Shown: positions 18,411-36,145 of the stretch, in pieces
How the letters are laid out: each line of letters opens with the position of its first letter
Position numbering within the stretch: the stretch's first letter is position 1
Assembly: GCA_031763025.1 (NCBI GenBank)
Contig: JASSKH010000010.1
Span: forward strand, 8,387,427-8,451,426
DNA from: Macrocystis pyrifera
Taxonomy: Eukaryota; Sar; Phaeophyceae; Laminariales; Laminariaceae
Reading direction: 5' to 3'
Length of the DNA: 64,000 nucleotides
The notes under the pieces: generated by a model
Seen by the model: the letters and a program-made list of their open reading frames with translations, nothing else
Databases searched by the model: none
What the model was told of the DNA's origin: nothing
Made by a program: the position numbers and the translations under genes

Positions 18411-18637
18411 AGCGGTTCCGCAAGGGCCTGTCATACCACCACTCTACCGCAGTCACTCTCACGAGTAAAGCTGGGGGAAATGGTGCAACGTCAATTGTTT
18501 CCTGGAAGGGTGGGGAAGGTTCAAGAACTTCCGTCAACGGGAACCGTGCGCATCTGAAGTTGTACTAGGTTTACAAGGTTTCTGCGCTGTGACGCGCATC
18601 TCTTCAGTTATGTCTTTAACACTGCTAAACCGGTTTC

Positions 18638-18914
18638 TGTTAAGATCTCGGGTTGCGGGACACTTTGTATCCCTGGACAGGTCTGCCTTTTAAGTCGGTG
18701 AACATTGCACTCACATGTGTTGTTTGCTTAGCTATAGAGAAGAGCAGTTTTATTCCTTTCGTGCACGCGGAGACTGAGACCAAGCTCGTGCTCCTCTGGA
18801 AAACCCCCGGTTTTCCATCTAAGATACGCCTTCCAAGTACTACAAATACGTTCCCCGTGACTAAACCCAGGTAGTAACCGGGCTTTCAATCTCATACAAA
18901 ACCATATCTTAACA
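18638..18914 (-). repeat. 3' LTR of the chromovirus
   Basis: 277 bp, on the downstream side for minus-strand transcription. Begins TGTTAAG and ends CTTAACA, a 7-bp perfect inverted repeat. On the minus strand it contains AATAAA (complement near 18748-18753), a plausible polyadenylation signal. Confidence 0.95.
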
Positions 18915-19775: not shown

Positions 19776-20879
19776 CTAGAAACCGCTCGCCGTTACTCCG
19801 GGAAAGCTCCGTTGTGCCGCGCCAATTCTCATTCGGCGATACAGGCGGTTGGTTTGGCGGTGTTGGTTCGGAGTGCCGGCCCAGTAGCGCAAAATGGCGT
19901 GGCGAGAAAGCTGAAGGTCCATTTCCCGTTCCCAGGATGGCCGGGAAAGTCCCTTCCAGTGCGTCTCGTACATCACCGCGATGACGCCGCCTCGACCTCT
20001 AACCGATTGATGTCTAGTAATCTTTTCCACTTCGAGTCGTTCAAGAGGGGTCGAAACGTCGTCCTCGGTGACGTGGTACGGAGGGGATTTCTTGGAGAAA
20101 TTGTTGAGCACGTATTGCGTCAACCCCGCCGGCAGATACTTCGGCATGTCGCCACGGTCGTGGGGGTTGGCACAGGGCTTGCAGCGTTGAACAGATACGC
20201 GCCGGCGAGCCTCGGCGCCGGGCATATCGGAAGGAAGATCCAAATACAGGAGCTTTGCTCCGAGAGGAGATCTATCCGGGGTGTCTGCAGAGGAGCAGGG
20301 ACCAACTGCTAGAACTTTGTAGGGGCCCGTCCAGTTTCGGGAGAGTTTGGCCTTGAGGACCTTAGCGTCCGTGTCTGGTTTCGCGCCCTGGCGGATGGTG
20401 GCCGCCGTATTGTACACCCACACCCAACCACCAACGTCAAATTTGGGGACCGGACGCAGAGCGTCGGAGAGGGCGGAGTTGCGGCGGTTCACGCGAGCGA
20501 CAGTGAGGGCGTGGTGTTCTCGAACGATGTCGTACGCGCGCTGCTGACGGTCCGTCGCCAAGTCGCAGTAGGCGAGATGGTCGCGGGCCAAGCTCTGGTG
20601 GCCGGCGACTCCTGCACGTTCGAAAATCGTGAGTGGGAGGCGTGGGAGCCGACCCATGTGTACCTCGTTGGGAGCCAGACCCGTGGCGGCACTGACGGAA
20701 TTGTTGTACGCAAATTCGACGTGGGGGAGCTGTTCATCCCAGGTGTTTTGGAGCTCGTTGACGACCATTGCCAACATCTGGGCCATCGTGTGGTTTACAC
20801 GTTCCACCCCACCGTTGCCGTTTGGGTGGTAGGAATCTGGTGGCAATTTTTCGAACCCCGAGAAGCTGATATACGGCAT
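19776..20879 (-). pseudogene. Integrase C-terminal half plus chromodomain
   Basis: Reading frame of 367 codons whose meaningful part starts near 20832. It begins with YHPNGNGGVERVN, which carries the catalytic Glu of the integrase D,D-35-E triad. The usual gypsy integrase helix and a GPYKVL strand segment follow. Near the end is a chromodomain: LEVEKITRHQ, then a strand ending YETHWKGL, then PSWERE. Chromodomains of chromoviruses read histone marks and steer integration. The upstream integrase core lies in another frame, joined by a one-base indel near 20830-20836. The tail stops at 19776 and a further frame change separates it from the Tudor-like segment. Confidence 0.85.
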
Positions 20880-22242
20880 GCGAAAGCTTGGAGCAGAACT
20901 GGAGGCCGTTGTCCGAGAGGATGCTGCGCGGGCACCCCCAAAGAGGGATATACCGGTTGATGAGAATGTTAGCCGTGCCCTCAGCGGTGAACTCTGCCGC
21001 TGTGACGGCGTACATGTCAGCCCGGCGGCTGTAACGATCAGTGAAAAGCAAGATGTAGGTATTTCCTCGAGGCGTCACCGGGAGGGGGCCGAAGTAGTCG
21101 ATGCTGACGGCGATGCCGGGCCCTTCTGGCAAGGGCAACGTGATGGAGGGCCACCGGACCGTCTGCCGCGACGTTTTTCGTGCCTGGCACTTTAAGCAGT
21201 TGCGTAGCCACCACCGAGTGCAGATGCTCATGCCGATCCACCAGTAGAAACGTTCGAGCATACGTAGGGTGCGCGCGGTTCCTAGGTGGCAGGAAGCCGT
21301 AGAATGACAAGCCTGCATGACCCAGGGGCGCATGAGCAGCGGAACATAAATGCGAATAGGCTCGTCGTTCAATAAGCAGACCGTACGGCCCACCGGGCGT
21401 GGCGTATCCAACGCAGGAGGGGGAGACGGCTGTCGGACAAGTAGAACGATGCCCGCGTCAGTGGTGTGCAAGCGGCCTTTGGCGGCCAGCTCTTGAACTT
21501 CCGAAAGGGGAGGGCGCTGGTGGGAAGGGAAACCTGATAAGAAGTCGTCTGGTAATTCCGGTTGGCCAAGGGCTATGTAGCGCATGGCGGCATTGCACGC
21601 GGGCTCAGCCTGTTGTTCCCGAGCCCAGTCGGCGTGCCAATAGCGCGCTGCGGAATCACCGAACTGAAACTCGGCAGCTGCGCCGAGTGCGTCCAAGTCG
21701 GTCGAGGTGACGGGAGGTGCGTCAGTTGGCGGCGGAAGTCGTAAAAGAGGAGTTCCCACGGGCTCGGTGCGGTCGCGGCCGGACGGAATGGGTACCGTCG
21801 GGACGGACGAGGCGGCAGGAGTCGGGTTCAAAACGACGGGTGCGGGCGGTCGTGGCCGTGGGGCTCGCAGCGGGGTGGTAGCGCGCCGGGCTGATGGTCT
21901 AGGGGTCCCGCCGGGCCCGAAGCCATAATCAACAGCAGGCGACACGGCGCCAGCGGCGGCGGCTGTTCGTCGGCGCGTCCGCGATGAGATGCGGCCTGAA
22001 GACGGCAAAACGTTCGGAGGTGCCGGGTTGCCAGGCGGCGATGGGGTAGACGCGGCCGGATCAGTGATCACGGCGGAATCTTTTCCCTGTAAAGTGCTCG
22101 TCGGGAGAGGAGCATGCTGGGCGACAATCATCGCTGCAGCGGGGGCTTTTGCAGAGCCCTGGCCTGAGAGGGAAGACGCGGCCGGAGCAGTGCTCACGAT
22201 GGAATCTTCGACCTGTAAAGTGCTCGTCGGGGGAGGAGCGCG
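20734..22242 (-). pseudogene. Integrase zinc-binding and catalytic core, with proline-rich linker
   Basis: After a Pro/Ala/Arg-rich linker of roughly 190 codons comes the HHCC zinc finger (HSTASCH and CLKCQARK) and the catalytic core with Asp in VSIDYFGPLP and Asp in SDNGLQF. This enzyme would insert the cDNA into chromosomes. The frame is the same as the RNase H segment upstream, interrupted only by one TAG at 22243-22245. It leaves frame after the second Asp, just before the third catalytic residue, at about 20830. So the triad is complete but split over two frames. Confidence 0.9.
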
Positions 22243-22300
22243 CTAGGCGACAATCGTCGCTGCAGCGGGGGCTTCTGCAGAGCCCCGGTCGCCCCCGAAG
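22049..22300 (-). repeat. 126-bp tandem duplication in pol linker
   Basis: Two diverged units (22049-22174 and 22175-22300), each 42 codons long, so frame is preserved. The upstream unit (in element sense) carries CAG changed to TAG at 22243-22245. Confidence 0.85.
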
Positions 22301-23124
22301 GGTACGACAAAAACCGAAGCGAAAGCGGCGGTGGCGGGGGGTGAAAAATCCCCCAAGCCAGGACGGCGGTCGACGGTGGCGACGGAGGCAGATACACGAG
22401 CGACGAATCTCCCCGAAGGAGCAGAGAGGTCGTCAATCCTCATACGTGGCCCGTGTGTGCGAAAATCGCGAAAATCCGAAGGGGCGAGAGGTAGCCCACC
22501 CAAGACGGCACTTTCACTGCGGGACACCAGCCCACCCAAACCGACACCAGGGGTCGGCGAAGAGCTAGTGTGGAGCCCGCAGGCTCGGATGAGGAAGATA
22601 CCACCGTCCTCGATGGGGTTGAGGCAGCTAGACCCACTGCGGTCGTGTTCTGCGGCGGGCTCTGGCAAGCGGGAGAGGAAGTCAGCATTTCCGTTGGCGC
22701 TGCCCTTGCGGTACTCGAGGGTGTAGTCGAACGCAGTGAGGAACTCGAGCCACCGTTGGACTCGCGCGTTGTGGTCCCCTACTTTGGCGATACTCTCAAG
22801 TGCTTTGTGATCAAAAAATATTCGAAACTTCGTGCCCCACAGGTAACCTCGGAGTCGTTTGATAGCCCAGACAATGCTGCCAGCTTCCAGGTCCAACGGT
22901 GTCCAGTGCCTTTCGGAATCGAGGGTAGCGCGGCTGATATAAGCAATGGGCCGTACCGAGCCGTCCGGTTGTTCTTGTTCGAGCGCGGCACCGAAACCGT
23001 CGATGCAGGCGTCGCAGTACACGTGGAAGGGGCGGGAGCCGTCGGCTACGGCATCCCAGTCAGGGAAGACCAAAATCGGTGGGGCCGCGAGCTCGGCGAG
23101 GATCTGGCGGACGATAACTCCCAT
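22243..23124 (-). pseudogene. RNase H domain of pol
   Basis: Minus-strand segment with the Ty3/gypsy RNase H signatures: HVYCDACIDGFGAAL (first Asp), a Leu-Asp-Leu-Glu-Ala helix (Glu), FRIFFDHKAL (second Asp), then ADFLSRLPE at the end of the domain. It would degrade the RNA strand of the RNA-DNA hybrid. It is in a different frame from RT because of the 68-bp duplication at 23131-23266. It continues in frame into the linker until TAG at 22243. Confidence 0.9.
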
Positions 23125-24302
23125 AGCCGACGTGAAGACATACTTGACCCCCTTTCGGAGAAGGGCGGTGAGAGGACGTATCCGTTTAGACAGGTCGGCG
23201 TGAAGACATACTTGACCCCCTTTCGGAGAAGGGCGGTGAGAGGACGTATCCGTTTAGACAGGTCGGGCAGGAATTTGCGATAATATCCTACGCCACCCAT
23301 CAGGGCACGGACCTGCTTGAGGTTCTTGGGCATGGGCATTTTCAGCAAGGCCAAAACTTTTTCCGCATTAGGGCTTATACCCGCGGGCGAAATAGAGTGG
23401 CCCAGAAAATTGGCGTCCGTGGCGCCGAGGCGAGCCTTCGAGGGGGAGAGCTTGAGGTTGTGTTTGCACAGGCGTTCGAAGAGGGCTCGTATCGTCTTGA
23501 CGTGGGCCGTCGGGTCAGAGTCGAAAACGATCACATCATCAAGGTAGGCCGCCACCTGTACCAGGCCTTTAATGACTTCGTTAATCACTTTGACGAACCA
23601 ACCGGGCGAAGCACTGCTGCCTTGGGGCATGACGAGCCACTCGTAAAGGCCCGTGGGAGTGCAGAACGCCGTAAGAGGGACGATGTCCTTGTGCGCGGTA
23701 ATCTGGTGGAACGAGGAGACCAAATCGAAGAGGGAAAACACCAGTCCCTTCCCCAGGGAGTCGAGGACTTGGTCCACGCGAGGGATAGGCAGCTGGCTGA
23801 GTTTGCTGATCTGGTTGAGTTTTTTGTAGTTCACGGTGATCCGAACGCCACCAGACTTTTTCGGGATGACCACCAGCGGGCTCGAGTACGGAGAAGTCGA
23901 GTGCTGGATCAGGCCAGCCGCTAGGTACTGATCCAAGGTGGCCTCCACTTCCTTGGCCAGGATGGGGTTGATGCGGTGCGGCCTGGATGTGACAGGAGCG
24001 CTTCCTTCCGGGACCGAGATCACGAAAGGCATCAACGAGCAGGAACCAAAATCCGACTTGGACTTCGAGAAAACGTCAGGAAATTCGCAGAGGACGTCCC
24101 CCAGCTGTTCAATGGCCGCAGGGGTCCAGCCTGTGCCGTGGAGACCAAAAGCCACCTCCCGCAGATGTGCCGGCAAGCGTGCCCAGATGCGCAGGAACGA
24201 AGCGCGCTGTTCTGAGGTCAAACGCTCAAGCAGTGCAGGCGAGGGCGAGGCTGGAGCTGCGAGGGGGGGGGGGAGTAACTGCTGAAACCGGACACACCTC
24301 AC
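23046..24302 (-). pseudogene. Reverse transcriptase domain of pol
   Basis: Clear Ty3/gypsy RT: SSPLVVIPKKSGGVRITVNY, FSLFDLVSSFHQI (motif A Asp), PQGSSASPGWF (motif B), AYLDDVIVF (catalytic Y-L-D-D), and the thumb segment LGHSISPAGISPNAEKVLAL with VGYYRKFLPDLSKRIRPL. The frame opens right after a TAG next to GTG at 24302, so there is no real start here; it is an internal piece of a gag-pol polyprotein. The last 50 codons (below 23199) are out of frame because of the 68-bp duplication. Confidence 0.95.
23131..23266 (-). repeat. 68-bp perfect tandem duplication in pol
   Basis: Units 23131-23198 and 23199-23266 are identical, starting cgtgaagacatacttgaccc. Because 68 is not a multiple of three, the second copy shifts RT out of frame with RNase H. 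Confidence 0.97.
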
Positions 24303-24689: not shown

Positions 24690-25075
24690 TCGCCAAAAAC
24701 GCGTTGATCAGACGGCCGAGGTGGCAGAGAGCGGTAGGAGCGGCTATTAAAGCGCATCCAGCTGTCACGTCCCAATAATACAGCATGCTGCATCACCGAC
24801 GGGGGAACCACGCAGGCCCAAACTGCGAGGGAGCAAGTAGGCTCATTTTCTCGAAAAAATTGGACGCTCAGGCGCACGCTCGTCGAAGTCTTCAGAGGGG
24901 TCGATTCGCCAAAAAAAAAAAAAACAAGAACGAGGGGCGCCGTTCTGCTCGCACGCGAGGGAGGCCGCACCAACCGAGTGCATGCGATCCAAAACATCTC
25001 GCCGGATGAAAGTCTGCGGGGAGCCAGTGTCGAGAAGCGCCACGCAACCAAAAGGTGCAAGAACGCCAGCTCCGC
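24690..25075 (-). pseudogene. Retropepsin-like protease domain
   Basis: The active-site loop FGCVALLDTGSPQTFI lies at about 25004-25051. The second half with PSVMQHAVLLGRDSWMRF, the LLGRD motif of retropepsins, lies in another frame downstream. The frame change falls within a run of 14 A on the plus strand (24911-24924; U run in element RNA). The enzyme would act as a dimer to cut the gag-pol polyprotein. Either a homopolymer indel killed the gene or transcriptional or ribosomal slippage on the U run could rejoin it. Confidence 0.85.
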
Positions 25076-25382
25076 TGTGAATCGCGATTTTCGTTGTAAA
25101 AGAGGCGTCATCGAGGGTAATGGTACCCCCGACGAGGCAGGGGCCGTGTTCTGGCAGCGCGAGGGAGGGGTCGACACTAGGTGCGACAGCCAAAATCTCC
25201 GGGCTGTGATCAGCCGGCGCGTCAGAAAAATAGGTCGAAACCTCCAAAGGAGGACCTGGGCAAACGCGGGCCACGGCCAAAGGGTGGGGCGGCGCTGGTG
25301 TAATCTCATGAATTCTGTCAGGTCTGGTTGGGGTGCAGAATTGGTGAGAGGAGGCGGGGTTTGCCAACCCGGCCTCACTTGA

Positions 25383-25841
25383 TCGGAGGGTGTCGTGAAC
25401 GGCGGAAAGAGCTTTACCGAGCAAATTTTTTCCACGCCACCGAGAGGGGTCGTGAGCTTCGGGGTCGTCTGCCCGCAAACCGATGCCCCACACGGCATCA
25501 AAAGGGCTGGCTTCAGCCAAAAATTTGGTGCCAGTGCTCAATAGGTGCTGCTTCATGACCGGGTTCTGCGAGAACTTGGCAAAATTACCAGCAAGGACGG
25601 CGTCTTCCCGAACACGGTCCCAGATAGCGCAGTCGAAGTTATGCACGCCTCGACCGAGGCGTTTGTGCTCGCGTGGGTCTGGCGAGGCCATAATCCGCTC
25701 CGCTGAGCCGTGGTCCTGGAAAAGGCGAGCCTTTTCAGCCATCATATACTGCTCCGCGCAGGAAGATGATACATCGTCGACGACAAAAGACGAGGGGGAC
25801 CACTGCGAAAAATAAGAGGGCGGCTGCCAGAACAGTACCAC
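25383..25841 (-). CDS. NADAR (DUF1768/YbiA-like) domain inside pol
   Basis: Lies in a 368-codon open frame (24843-25949); residues about 37-189 form a full-length NADAR domain. Visible family features: FWQPPSYFSQWSPSSF at the start, EQYMMAEKARLF, LGRGVHNFD, an isolated Trp at 110, LAGNFAKFSQNP, LLSTGTKFLAEASP, AVWGIGL, and RWRGKNLLGKAL near the end. NADAR enzymes cleave N-glycosidic bonds: YbiA-type proteins act on early riboflavin intermediates, and the NADAR part of some bacterial DarT/DarG systems removes ADP-ribose from guanine. It sits directly upstream of, and in frame with, the protease active site, so it was made as part of the polyprotein. A run of 11 G at 25918-25928 marks a frame break on its upstream side. 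No stop or frameshift inside the domain. The role in the element is unknown. Confidence 0.93.
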
Positions 25842-25928
25842 CCGCTCCGTTATATACTCGAGAGTAGGGTCAAAAACCGACGGTGCCGAGTCGTCGGTGG
25901 CCGCGGTTGAGGCGTGTGGGGGGGGGGG

Positions 25929-26821
25929 AGTGTGCTTCTCTGAGAACACTGAGCCCCTGGTGCACGAGGCGAGTCCGGTTCCACGTATACTGGCTCTGTG
26001 TCACCATTGCCCGTAGGCAAAAAATCGCCAGAAGGTTCTCTTGCTGCGCCCGATGATCTCTGTCCTGGACCAAAGGGGGCAGGGGGCTCTGAGCCCGTTC
26101 TGCTTGACGAGGGCTGCGATTCTTCCGAATTTAACGGGTATGCTGTCCGGTTGATCTGACCGGAGGCCGTGGAGTCACCACTGGCTCGACGGACAGTGCC
26201 AGGTTTTTTCCTGTTCCACTGGAGCCGAAGGAGCGCTGCGCACATGGAGTGGCGTGCGCGAAGACGAAAGAGGGCCTGCAGACCCTGTAGACGTCTTCAA
26301 GAACGGCGCTCGGGTGGGGGGCAACAAAGGGTCCACCGGAGAGAGCTTCCATCCTGTAGACCTGGTGGGGAAGGGGGACGAGGTAGCTAATCTTGTCGAC
26401 TCCTCCTTAATAGGAAAAAGGGTGGAGCGGCCACCGTTATTGCAAGGAAACGCCGAGTCGAGCTTCAACCGAGATCTCGGAGTTTCGGTGTTTGCCCTCC
26501 CGCACCTCAAACCGACCGCCACCGCATGGCCGGGAGGTGTAGGAGGGGGACACCCTCGCTGAAAAAGACAACGCGACGGCGCGACACCCGTCGTGTGGCG
26601 CGGTGCGTGGTTTGGGAGAGAGGCGTTTATCGCGCCTGCTCTCGTGCCCAGGTTGAGGGGAGCGGCGTTTGAGGCGCGGGCTCCCGACGTCGGGGAAGGC
26701 GCCTGAGGGCTCCCCGGAAAAAGCTGTGGAGCTGAGTCGCTGCGTCGGTCCGAAGTACGGAGTAACGCGCGGGGCGGGAGCGGAGTACTGAGCGAGCCTG
26801 GGACGCGAGCATCTTGTGAAA
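25929..26821 (-). other. Proline/serine-rich linker between gag and NADAR
   Basis: Overlapping minus-strand frames (25850-26245 and 26175-26843) rich in Pro, Ser, Arg and Gly without a recognisable fold. Probably polyprotein linker with frameshifts. The frame at 25850-26245 runs into the NADAR frame across the 11-G run. Confidence 0.5.
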
Positions 26822-27667
26822 TCAAGGTTTTTTCTCCTGACAATGCTGGCGGCGGGCGGTCAGGAGAAGCCGAACCGCCGTCGACCTGTCAGTTACCGGT
26901 ACGGAAGGTGCCTGGCTGGCTTCCATTCGGGTTTCCGCCCGAGGTATGTGAGGCGCCGTAGCGAACCCCCGAGACGGGAGCCGGAGCGGAAGAGGCAGGG
27001 GCGGTCGAACCACCATGATGGCCGGGGTGGGAATGCTGGTGTCCTCGTGCCGCGTGTGTGTTGTAGCCATCACCTTGTCTGTGTTGCTGACCCTGACCGT
27101 GATGTTGCCCACGCGAGGGGCCGGGGCGACGCCTGTGTTTCTGCTGGTTGTTTTTTTTTCGGTCGTGAATTGTTCTCGCGCGCGGTGTCTGATCATGCGT
27201 TCTTGCCAACGACGGAACGCCTCGCCGTCGTCGCCGAGCGTTCCGAGGTCGGGGTTCAAGATACCACTAAGGTTTAAAAAAGGGTGCCTACACTGACGAA
27301 GAGAGTGTGTGTCTTCGTGACAGTTTAAACAGCGTCCTCGGTTTTCGCTGAGGGCGGCTGCGCGAGCGGACGATGAAAGTAGGCCGCTCCAGAGGGGAGG
27401 CTCCTCGGTCTGGATGGACATGCAAACGGCGAGAACTTCGGCATAGTGGTGTTCTTCAAGGGGCCAGCAGTTGGAAGAGGTGTCAAGCCACGGGTCGAGG
27501 CAGTCAGGGATGGATTTGTGGACATTCATCACAAGCGGATTATTGCGCGATCCCGTCTGCCAAGAAGGCGACTGGGGAAGCGTCCGGCCCTGGCCGCGAC
27601 CAATATTGGCGGGCCGGGGCCCCGACGGGGCGGATGACCGCGCACCCGACGACGAAGAAGCAGGCAA
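26822..27667 (-). pseudogene. Gag C-terminal part with CCHC zinc knuckle
   Basis: The frame carries one perfect retroviral-type zinc knuckle, CLNCHEDTHSLRQC (C-x2-C-x4-H-x4-C), at about 27290-27331. This is the nucleocapsid function that binds element RNA. Surrounding sequence is Arg/Pro-rich. The frame differs from the upstream gag segment; at least one indel lies between 27665 and 27775. Confidence 0.85.
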
Positions 27668-29901: not shown

Positions 29902-30939
29902 TCAGAGTCCGGGGGCTCGAAGTCCACGGCGTCGTCCAGAGACGTGGGGCCCGCGGGCTCGGGTGTCCACGCTCCCGAAGAGGGGGAGGAGCCGTAAGTC
30001 CTCAGGCCTCTGGAGGACCTGGCGGGGCTGGGTGATCCCTCCCATGCTTTTGTTGTCCGTGACATGCTGAGGCGGGGCGGGCGGAAAACACCAGGGCAAA
30101 GGGCGACGCCGGGGCAGGGGGGACACCGAGGCGGGGTAGGACGGAAAATGGCGGTTCTCAGGGTCGTGGTGGGTAGGAACAGCGGCGGCAGGAGCTGCAG
30201 CTTGTGCTTCAGCAACTTGTATAGCTGTGATCAAGGCCTGGCGCGCCAGTCGGCGGGCACTACGAGCACTTGGGGAGCGAGCCTCGACCCTAGGTAGTGT
30301 CGTGGTAGGGTGGCGGCTGCCGCGGTTTATATGCGTACTAACAGCAAGTGTAGTTGGTGTTGGCGCGTCTCCGATACTGGAGGGCCTATCAAAAGCCTCG
30401 TCCCCTCTAGCAGCAGTATTAGAACTGGCATCGGAACGAGAATGCACAACCGGATCGCCGCGGGTAGCTACAGCAGTGGGCACGTCGGTAGTGGAGGGCC
30501 TATCAAAAACACCATCCACTCGAGCAGCAGTATTAAAACTCGCATCAGGGCGAGAATTCTCAGCAGCAACGTCACGGGGAGCCACAGTAGCGGGCACTCC
30601 GGTACGGGGGGGCCTATCTAAAGCATCGTCCTCACTAACAGCAGTATTAAAACTCGCATCAGGACGAGAATTCTCAGCAGAAACGTCGCGGGTAGCCACA
30701 GTAGCGGGCACGCCGGTACTGGGGGGCCTATCAAAAACATCGTCCTCACTAACAGCAGTATTAAAACTCGCATCAGTAGTGGAATTTCCAGTGGAATCGG
30801 CGTGGGTGGTTACAGCAGCGGGCGAAAAGGACGCAATACTGAATCCAGTGTGCCATCTTGTGGGCGAGGAGCGGGAAAAAAAATTCGCGAGCGGCCGTGG
30901 TGCTCCCGCTATCAGCAGCATGAAAACTCGAACCAGCAC
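29902..30939 (-). pseudogene. Gag N-terminal region with four 38-residue repeats
   Basis: 345-codon frame. Residues about 35-190 hold four tandem copies of a 38-residue unit (114 bp at DNA level, 30382 to about 30838) with the pattern DASFNTA..DD.FDRP..T.VPA. The unit is polar and probably disordered. A short helical Ala-rich stretch (AIQVAEAQAAAPAAA) follows. No known domain. Such an array is unusual for gag and may act as a multivalent binding or spacer segment. Confidence 0.5.
30382..30838 (-). repeat. Four tandem 114-bp coding repeats
   Basis: Anchor gggcctatc occurs at 30382, 30496, 30610 and 30724, an exact 114-bp period. Units differ by scattered substitutions, mostly keeping the frame. 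Confidence 0.9.
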
Positions 30940-31847: not shown

Positions 31848-32124
31848 TGTAAAGATCCCGGGTTGCGGGACACTTTGTATCCCTGGACAGGTCTTCCTTT
31901 TAAGTCGGTAAACATTGCACTCACATGTGTTGTTTGCTTAGCTATAGAGAAGAGCAGTTTTATTCCTTTCGTGCACGCGGAGACTGAGACCGAGCTCGTG
32001 CTCCTCTGGAAAACCCCTGGTTTTCCATCTAAGATACGCCTTCCAAGTACTACAAATACGTTCCCCGTGACTAAACCCAGGTAGTTACCGGGCTTTCAAT
32101 CTCATACAAAACCATATCTTAACA
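31848..32124 (-). repeat. 5' LTR of the chromovirus
   Basis: 277 bp, about 7 substitutions from the other LTR and no indels. For minus-strand transcription this copy would carry the promoter. Confidence 0.95.
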
Positions 32125-33162
32125 TTTCCTCTATGCATTCGATCCTAAAGCTATAGTACTCGTGTAGGTGCTCGTGGCGCTGTGTAAATTGCTATTGTTG
32201 TGCTAGGTTTCTTCGCTGTCACGCGCATCGCTCAAGTATTGTATTTAGCCCTGCGAACCCCATTACATCAATGAAATCTATTGTACTGGTGCAGATGCTC
32301 GTGCCGCTGTCGTGCGCTCTGGCTGGGTATCCCCGCCGAGTACGACCACGATTAGTACCAATAATCAACACGCAGACGCTCAGTCTGAGCCGAACCCCGC
32401 CTGCTGGGGTGTCGTCTGTGACTGTCCCGACTGGTCTCTGTCGTCACTCTCACCTAATCCAACTGTGTCGTCACGACAGAAAAGACAAGCAAACTGAGAA
32501 CAGCGCTCGAATGAATTCCATCGAGGGCAATAATAATATATATTATTCGACATTTTTTTAAAGAGAAAAACACAAAAGCTGTGCACGAACTAAATTGAAA
32601 TAACACCAGGATGAAAAAAACAAAAAATCAAGAAGCAGGAGAGAAAAGTCGAAGCACTTTGAGGTAACACGACAACACGACTACACCACAAGGCCGAAAA
32701 GGGCGTACTTCGAGAAAGCAAAATGGGGGCTACTGAACCAAACAAAACAAACTATTTCATGGTGAAAGCTACGGAAAGCAAGGCAGACCGCAAACAGGGC
32801 TCGACATAGGTTTCGATGCAACTGCTTCCATTACCACATTTTCACGCGGTCTGTCGCGTCCTTACATGGCCCAACTTCGAAGCTCCGAGTTCTCCTGTAT
32901 TATCATGGCAAAGGGCCGCGGACCCGGCAACAACCTCGAAAACCGGACGAACGAGGTGAAGACTGCTTTAGTTTTTCCTCGATCTTGAGTGTACTTCATT
33001 CAGGTGTCATTAATGAAGTACAGAGTATAACACTGGCTACTGGCTACGCGAACGGCCAGTTCAGTTCAGTCATTTTCATGTCTCGCGCGTTTTCCACCCT
33101 GCTCCATGGCATTCGTGCAGGAACACCAGGTTGTTCACTGATTTAGGAGACTATCTGTTTTT
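32125..33162. other. No gene recognised
   Basis: Flank of the retroelement. A stretch at about 32196-32263 resembles sequence left of the element (18566-18633): gt.ctaggttt..cgctgt.acgcgcatc. The plus ORF at 32271-32561 has a hydrophobic start but no other support. Confidence 0.4.
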
Positions 33163-33709
<547 letters not shown>

Positions 33710-35892: not shown

Positions 35893-36145
35893 TGATGCGA
35901 TCCCTGGACAGGTTTGCCTATTAAGTCGGTACCTGTTGGTACTCATGTGGGACGCTTGCTTAGAGATAGAAGAGGAGCAGTTTTATTCCTTTCGTGCACG
36001 CAGAGACTGAGACCAACCTTGCGCCCCTCTGGAAAACCCCTGGTTTTCCCTCAGAAACGCCTTCCATGTATTTCAAATACGATCCCAGTGCCTGAATCCA
36101 GGTAATTTCCGTGCTTTCAACCTCATTCAGAGCAGTATCATAACA
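35893..36145 (-). repeat. Diverged solo LTR related to the chromovirus LTR
   Basis: From tccctggacaggt to cataaca this 253-bp stretch aligns with the chromovirus LTR (shared: agcagttttattcctttcgt, gcgcccctctggaaaacccc-type segment), with a deletion near its start and many substitutions. No internal sequence and no second LTR, so a solo LTR of a related older element. Confidence 0.85.

Follow-up and report, generated by a model that had tools for sequence, protein, structure and literature searches.

A NADAR domain is a recurrent part of an LTR retrotransposon family in the genome of the kelp Macrocystis pyrifera, in which it forms the N-terminal part of Pol and directly precedes the protease. 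The NADAR-bearing element is real, abundant and probably selected. We analyzed a stretch of 64,000 nucleotides of contig JASSKH010000010.1 (henceforth the window), and the host of the NADAR domain was found to be a 13.5-kb LTR retrotransposon on the minus strand, running from 32124 down to 18638, with the following features.

18634 to 18637, no strand assigned: TTTC, probable target-site duplication adjoining the left LTR
18638 to 18914, minus strand: 3' LTR of 277 bp, plus-strand ends TGTTAAGAT...ATCTTAACA, located by eye in the flanking sequence
19881 to 20033, minus strand: putative chromodomain at the integrase C-terminus (PF00385, E 0.0036, 17.6 bits, below the cut-off of 25.1)
20848 to 21342, minus strand: integrase H2C2 and core (PF17921, E 9.7e-13; rve, E 3.9e-07, slightly below its cut-off)
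22729 to 23037, minus strand: RNase H domain (PF17917, E 6.1e-31)
23391 to 23867, minus strand: reverse transcriptase (RT; RVT_1, E 5.8e-27)
24846 to 25949, minus strand: open frame with NADAR and the protease active site (ORF listing and Pfam scan)
25020 to 25031, minus strand: protease active site DTGS (motif LLDTGSPQTF), in frame with NADAR
25383 to 25832, minus strand: NADAR domain, YbiA subfamily (PF08719, E 4.7e-49)
27290 to 27331, minus strand: gag-type zinc knuckle CLNCHEDTHSLRQC, CX2CX4HX4C, within ORF 26822-27667 (hand-counted coordinates)
31848 to 32124, minus strand: 5' LTR of 277 bp, first plus-strand bases TGTAAAGAT, 1 change from the other LTR
32125 to 32128, no strand assigned: TTTC, probable target-site duplication adjoining the right LTR

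The two LTRs are 97.47% identical with 7 mismatches in the direct-repeat comparison (a divergence of ~2.5%), and the TTTC duplication, being of four bases only, may be due to chance. As the domains are spread over several frames and the LTRs are present, we regard the window copy as a broken insertion with both ends. The order of the parts is the CX2CX4HX4C knuckle, NADAR, protease, RT, RNase H, integrase, and the weak chromodomain. The element was assigned to Ty3/gypsy by the presence of LTRs and the protease-RT-RNase H-integrase order. A sequence-only reading of the window had located NADAR between gag and the protease, in frame with the latter and uninterrupted in an otherwise broken pol, and this agrees with the knuckle-bearing ORF upstream, DTGS in the same frame, and the RT, RNase H, and integrase domains in separate ORFs. 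The same reading had called the element a chromovirus, and we do not retain that name: the chromodomain match is below the cut-off, none was found in the scanned pieces of two other copies (L037 and L038), and the available text of PMC12477816 states that the Ectocarpus Gypsy lineages with a chromodomain are unrelated to chromoviruses, with which the kelp element shares the domain order and perhaps the chromodomain. The sequence-only reading had given no strand. All of these parts lie on the minus strand; when 24843-25949 is translated on the plus strand, 6 stops appear.

Other repeats were seen in and around the element. A tandem repeat of three overlapping copies (114-nt spacing, 78-81% alike) lies at 30369-30823, in the element's 5' portion upstream of the knuckle. 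The region that separates RNase H from integrase holds, at 22044-22288, two direct copies of 119 nt that are 87% alike and 126 nt apart. Outside the element, a third partial LTR copy at 35971-36052 (90% over 82 nt) is likely an LTR fragment or another insertion, and simple repeats of 9-nt spacing, in which an ORF reads as T, L, and Y runs, occupy 33127-33670, ~1 kb outside the 5' LTR.

The NADAR domain is full-length, as had been claimed from the letters of the window. Residues 40-189 of the minus-strand ORF 24846-25949 match PF08719 over profile positions 2-163 of 163 with 167.2 bits against a cut-off of 35.1. The lack of a significant NADAR profile match, one of the two outcomes that the sequence-only reading had named as refuting its proposal, was thus not observed. 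The AlphaFold model of the element NADAR had a pLDDT of 96.5, and among the 38 matches listed by Foldseek against PDB, E was below 0.001 only for 8bau, the NADAR of Phytophthora nicotianae (TM 0.80), and 2b3w, E. coli YbiA (TM 0.73). In the numbering of 8bau after PMC11543638, the window copy keeps E43, K50, K75, G78, R79, V81, W89, R93, E125, D130, and W133, and bears F at Y84 and C at D86. Thus, 11 of the 13 named contact or catalytic residues are identical to those of 8bau, with which the element NADAR shares the predicted fold and the YbiA subfamily, whereas 8bau is a PDB chain of 189 residues outside any Pol and only 31% identical. According to PMC11543638, as far as its text was available, the position of E125 is occupied by glutamate in YbiA, aspartate in BC4488, and histidine in the phage types. 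The full-length profile match, the glutamate at this position, and the predicted YbiA fold place the element NADAR in the YbiA subfamily.

The active site was then compared across 25 rows of a kelp family termed A (the window included), 6 rows of a second family termed B, and 15 protease-bearing homologues from other sources. E43 and E125 were kept in all 25 family A and all 6 family B rows, as was K50 except for M in a single family A row. Among the 15 homologues, E43 was kept in 14, K50 in 13, and E125 in 14, while W133 was lost in three. The contact D86 is not kept, and the residue at R93 is R in 31 of 31 kelp rows but in 9 of the 15 homologues. These kelp rows were the best NADAR scorers, and thus the active-site conservation in kelp is biased to conserved copies. 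The element NADAR is a plausible ADP-ribosyl-guanine hydrolase. The conservation cannot separate hydrolysis from binding, because the conserved residues are ligand contacts as well (PMC11543638, in the part available). The domain might accordingly be a binding module that anchors Pol or the particle on RNA, chromatin, or proteins carrying ADP-ribose, in which case hydrolysis would be secondary, and a chromatin reader is perhaps present at the other end of Pol (a weak match here; see also the available text of PMC12477816). We consider such a role quite unlikely. E125 is invariant in the kelp rows, albeit in a best-scoring sample, and a substitution at its structural equivalent, D171 of the E. 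coli C7 NADAR, is reported to abolish efficient activity (PMC11543638, from the same partial text).

The NADAR search of the M. pyrifera genome (537,376,219 bases in 223 contigs) found the domain above the cut-off in 150 of 150 scored places, out of 1264 first-look candidates, and 126 of the 150 had no internal stop by hand count. The domain in the window is therefore no single chance capture, the case that the sequence-only reading had named as speaking against its proposal. The same search was positive in 3 of 14 control genomes. We fetched the 30 best-scoring loci, of which 28 were parsed (L011 and L023 were left out). A protease motif was found downstream of NADAR in 26 of the 28 (absent in L005 and L024), 458-498 nt after the WGIG motif, and in 16 of them NADAR and the protease share a single unbroken frame. 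The CX2CX4HX4C knuckle was seen upstream in 15 of the 28 loci, ~1.8 kb before WGIG in 14 and 0.9 kb in one; the fetched flanks end near the usual place of the knuckle. Of six longer regions, four (L031, L032, L035, and L036) have RT downstream of NADAR, and no RT match was found in the scanned pieces of L033 and L034. At least two element families were recognized, namely family A, which includes the window copy and its knuckle CLNCHEDTHSLRQC, and family B with six loci, two of which have a flank showing the knuckle CLNCNGTDHSMKTC.

The amino-acid constraint on NADAR is of the same order as that on the protease. Between families A and B, the identity is 51% in NADAR, 52% in the protease region, and 78% in RT, with the corresponding dN of 0.44-0.45, 0.44, and 0.16; dS has reached saturation, at 2.1 or above for every region and infinite for one NADAR pair. 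The divergences of the two domains are not always parallel, as P0047 and P0114 are 53% identical in NADAR but 81% in the protease region, and family A and P0042 are 57% and 44% identical, respectively. In the pairs used for a spacer control, NADAR is 47-63% identical against 26-31% in shuffled sequences. The 70 residues preceding it, by contrast, do not rise above the shuffle level in six of seven pairs, the exception being family A-P0047 (39% vs. 25%). The linker between NADAR and the protease is above the shuffle level in three family B pairs (38-46% vs. 27-37%). Within-family dN/dS is 0.40 in A and 0.44 in B, values biased to conserved copies since the loci were picked by NADAR score. Among the 24 family A loci and the window, variants common to at least two copies comprise 12 synonymous and 12 nonsynonymous changes, and singletons 33 and 60, against a neutral expectation of 2.91 nonsynonymous changes per synonymous one. 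The direction fits purifying selection, but we place little weight on these counts, which are few and come from copies selected for a high NADAR score. A functionless domain carried along by chance in a dead family would agree with the broken frames in the window copy and many others, and with the active-site residues lost in some homologues. We find this barely credible for a domain that holds a fixed position, a conserved active site, and protease-like constraint in two families.

NADAR is not a standard domain of LTR retrotransposons, as the sequence-only reading had put it, but its presence in one is not new. One of four Gypsy lineages of Ectocarpus, Gypsy-12_Ec32, was reported to begin its Pol with a conserved NADAR of the YbiA family (PMC12477816, Genome Biol 2025), and the available part of that paper suggests that the domain processes the RNA intermediate and came by bacterial transfer. 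The placement at the Pol N-terminus and the recurrence in the lineage are both seen in kelp, the likeness being one of description, and the kelp genome differs in having at least two families. The same partial text describes a NADAR-like ORF1 in Tx1 LINEs of Crassostrea gigas; here the domain is likewise in a retrotransposon protein, but the element is a non-LTR one, the domain is divergent, and it resides in ORF1 instead of Pol. A literature search, outside which lay most subscription papers and all bioRxiv preprints, yielded among the matches listed no further report of NADAR in a Gypsy Pol, and no literature on NADAR in Macrocystis was found in it. Thus, the kind of element is already published, and what is new here is the kelp families, the active-site and divergence evidence, and the brown-algal cellular NADARs as possible nearest kin of the element NADAR.

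The protein search gave 750 matches, and the homologues discussed here come from the 120 listed and a second search. Among those with a full-length domain, 15 have a protease motif, which follows NADAR by 114-124 residues. A NADAR search restricted to long proteins gave none at 1e-5 among 497 candidates. Nine proteins (P0031, P0040, P0042, P0053, P0054, P0061, P0065, P0066, and P0069) form a NADAR-protease lineage of their own, the third, which shares 41-45% identity with the window ORF and is encoded on large contigs of up to 2.2 Mb. Two abalone proteins, P0074 of Haliotis cracherodii and P0082 of H. rubra, have two NADAR domains (46% and 44% identical to the kelp domain, respectively) and were far from the element group in trees 1 and 2. 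Other fusions join NADAR with PF01661 or with PF05773 (P0212 and P0224), which we take to be the macrodomain and RWD, respectively.

Five proteins consist of NADAR and a short tail without a protease and are termed cellular-type here: two of Ectocarpus, one each of Pylaiella and Scytosiphon, and one further. A C..C..C..TH pattern was found upstream of NADAR in three of the five, and a sixth, partial protein of Ectocarpus (P0181) was left out. We inferred tree 1, tree 2 (without PDB2b3w, P0026, P0114, and P0085), and trees 3 and 4 on chosen subsets, the last taking in 18 of 80 bacterial loci and 11 of 27 viral loci. The cellular NADARs grouped together with supports of 100/100 (tree 3) and 100/99 (tree 4). 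This group was placed beside the family A NADARs with supports of 78/83 (tree 3) and 89/93 (tree 4) and an SH-aLRT of 93 (tree 2), albeit the branch joining the two was never starred. Holding A, B, and the cellular NADARs together gave a tree 2.8 log units better than the free search in tree 4 (p-AU 0.55) and 3.9 log units worse in tree 3 (p-AU 0.11). The nearest bacterial NADARs were those of Nannocystis, other Myxococcota, and Planctomycetota. With regard to a viral donor, NADARs 39-56% identical are encoded in 27 viral contigs, and no viral row was among the five nearest rows of the three focus rows in tree 4.

Judging from these trees, the evidence leans to a single brown-algal NADAR stock, contrary to the plain bacterial transfer suggested in the accessible text of PMC12477816, since the brown-algal cellular NADARs are put beside family A with modest support. 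A single acquisition shared with the brown-algal cellular NADAR, ultimately from the bacterial YbiA pool, is likely but unproven. The cellular NADARs could instead be domesticated pieces of the element, neither its source nor its sister, which is compatible with the function proposed below and which we regard as somewhat unlikely. Four of the five cellular-type proteins come from just three named genera, as such domestication would have it. In kelp, where 150 of 1351 candidates were scored, identity to the Scytosiphon cellular protein stayed at 56% or below, and many of the matches were the element places of the NADAR search; none of 50 kelp loci, all of which were fetched as NADAR places or their neighbours, showed the N-terminal cysteine motif. 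Both observations are in line with domestication, but the genome search reads no introns and intron-split genes would escape it. In addition, the cellular group lies beside, not inside, the element A group, though with modest support.

The family B NADAR had no stable grouping. Together with P0078, it grouped with four other rows, one of which is named Planctomycetaceae, in tree 1 (99/96), and it was beside P0212 and P0200 in tree 2 (SH-aLRT 90), while neither placement was recovered in tree 4. The NADAR and protease trees with the A and B regions were poorly resolved. The AU test did not reject a tree uniting A and B (p 0.335 in tree 3; p 0.514 in tree 4, in which the held tree was 1.5 log units better), and NADAR and the protease diverge alike between the two families. 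We thus dropped the idea of a domain swap between families A and B as the less probable reading.

In regard to function, NADARs including a YbiA-type enzyme of Phytophthora are reported to hydrolyse guanine-linked ADP-ribose in single-stranded DNA (PMC11543638, in its accessible part). According to the part of PMC11833690 at hand, NADARs were the sole ones among three hydrolase families tested to remove ADP-ribose from guanine in RNA, and were inactive on ADP-ribose at phosphate ends or uracil. We propose that the kelp NADAR would be made as part of Pol and enter the particle together with RT, where it would strip ADP-ribose from guanines of the element RNA or single-stranded cDNA and thereby allow ADP-ribosylated templates to be copied. 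Erasing host ADP-ribosylation is also one of the roles that the sequence-only reading had suggested. A retroelement exposes both RNA and single-stranded DNA, and therefore an eraser delivered with RT would fit. For this proposal as a whole, a YbiA-type NADAR that looks catalytically competent and is made with Pol, packaged with RT, and directed to guanine ADP-ribose on RNA or cDNA, we tentatively put the chance of its being correct a little below even. The domain may otherwise act on small molecules, either the NAD/ADP-ribose pool or reactive riboflavin intermediates, and help the particle or the host cell instead of repairing nucleic acid. Reactive intermediates of the riboflavin pathway are reported to be removed by NADARs of bacteria and plants (PMC11543638, in the text available), and several relatives in our search are named ribA/ribD-fused protein. 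We judge this very unlikely, as it offers no clear reason to keep NADAR in Pol by the protease at the near-constant spacing seen in the 15 homologues.

An eraser of this kind calls for an opponent. The element NADAR shares the fold and the class of chemistry with the NADARs of DarT1-NADAR toxin-antitoxin pairs (BC4488 subfamily), but differs from them in the YbiA-type E125 and in its surroundings: the element pieces scanned, to which the far 5' part does not belong, contain no ADP-ribosyltransferase match, and a search with PF14487, which reads no introns, gave 0 candidates for a DarT-family transferase in the kelp genome. That search thus yielded no guanine transferase as a candidate opponent, which counts against the eraser proposal. 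NADARs outside DarT operons were reported to protect cells poorly against DarT1 (PMC11125620, in the portion available), and this likewise counts against it. Brown algae may defend themselves against retroelements in an antiviral-like way, by ADP-ribosylating guanine in RNA or cDNA, and the element may encode the countermeasure; we regard this extension of the eraser proposal as unlikely on present grounds. There is room for such an undescribed defence, because Ectocarpus is described, in the part of PMC12477816 consulted, as being without H3K9 and H3K27 methylation and with negligible 5mC. The same text ties small RNAs and H3K79me2 to the silencing of intact elements in Ectocarpus.

The NADAR-bearing Gypsy elements are not confined to Ectocarpus, and for the origin of their domain a brown-algal cellular gene is to be weighed, not bacteria alone. 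The main interest of the kelp families lies in a testable link between nucleic-acid ADP-ribosylation and retroelements: does any eukaryote ADP-ribosylate guanines in the RNA or cDNA of retroelements? Such a modification is what one would naturally look for on seeing an abundant family whose NADAR active site persists as the spacer before it drifts. If the defence reading were true, brown algae would possess an undescribed eukaryotic defence, the countermeasure to which is encoded by an LTR retrotransposon.
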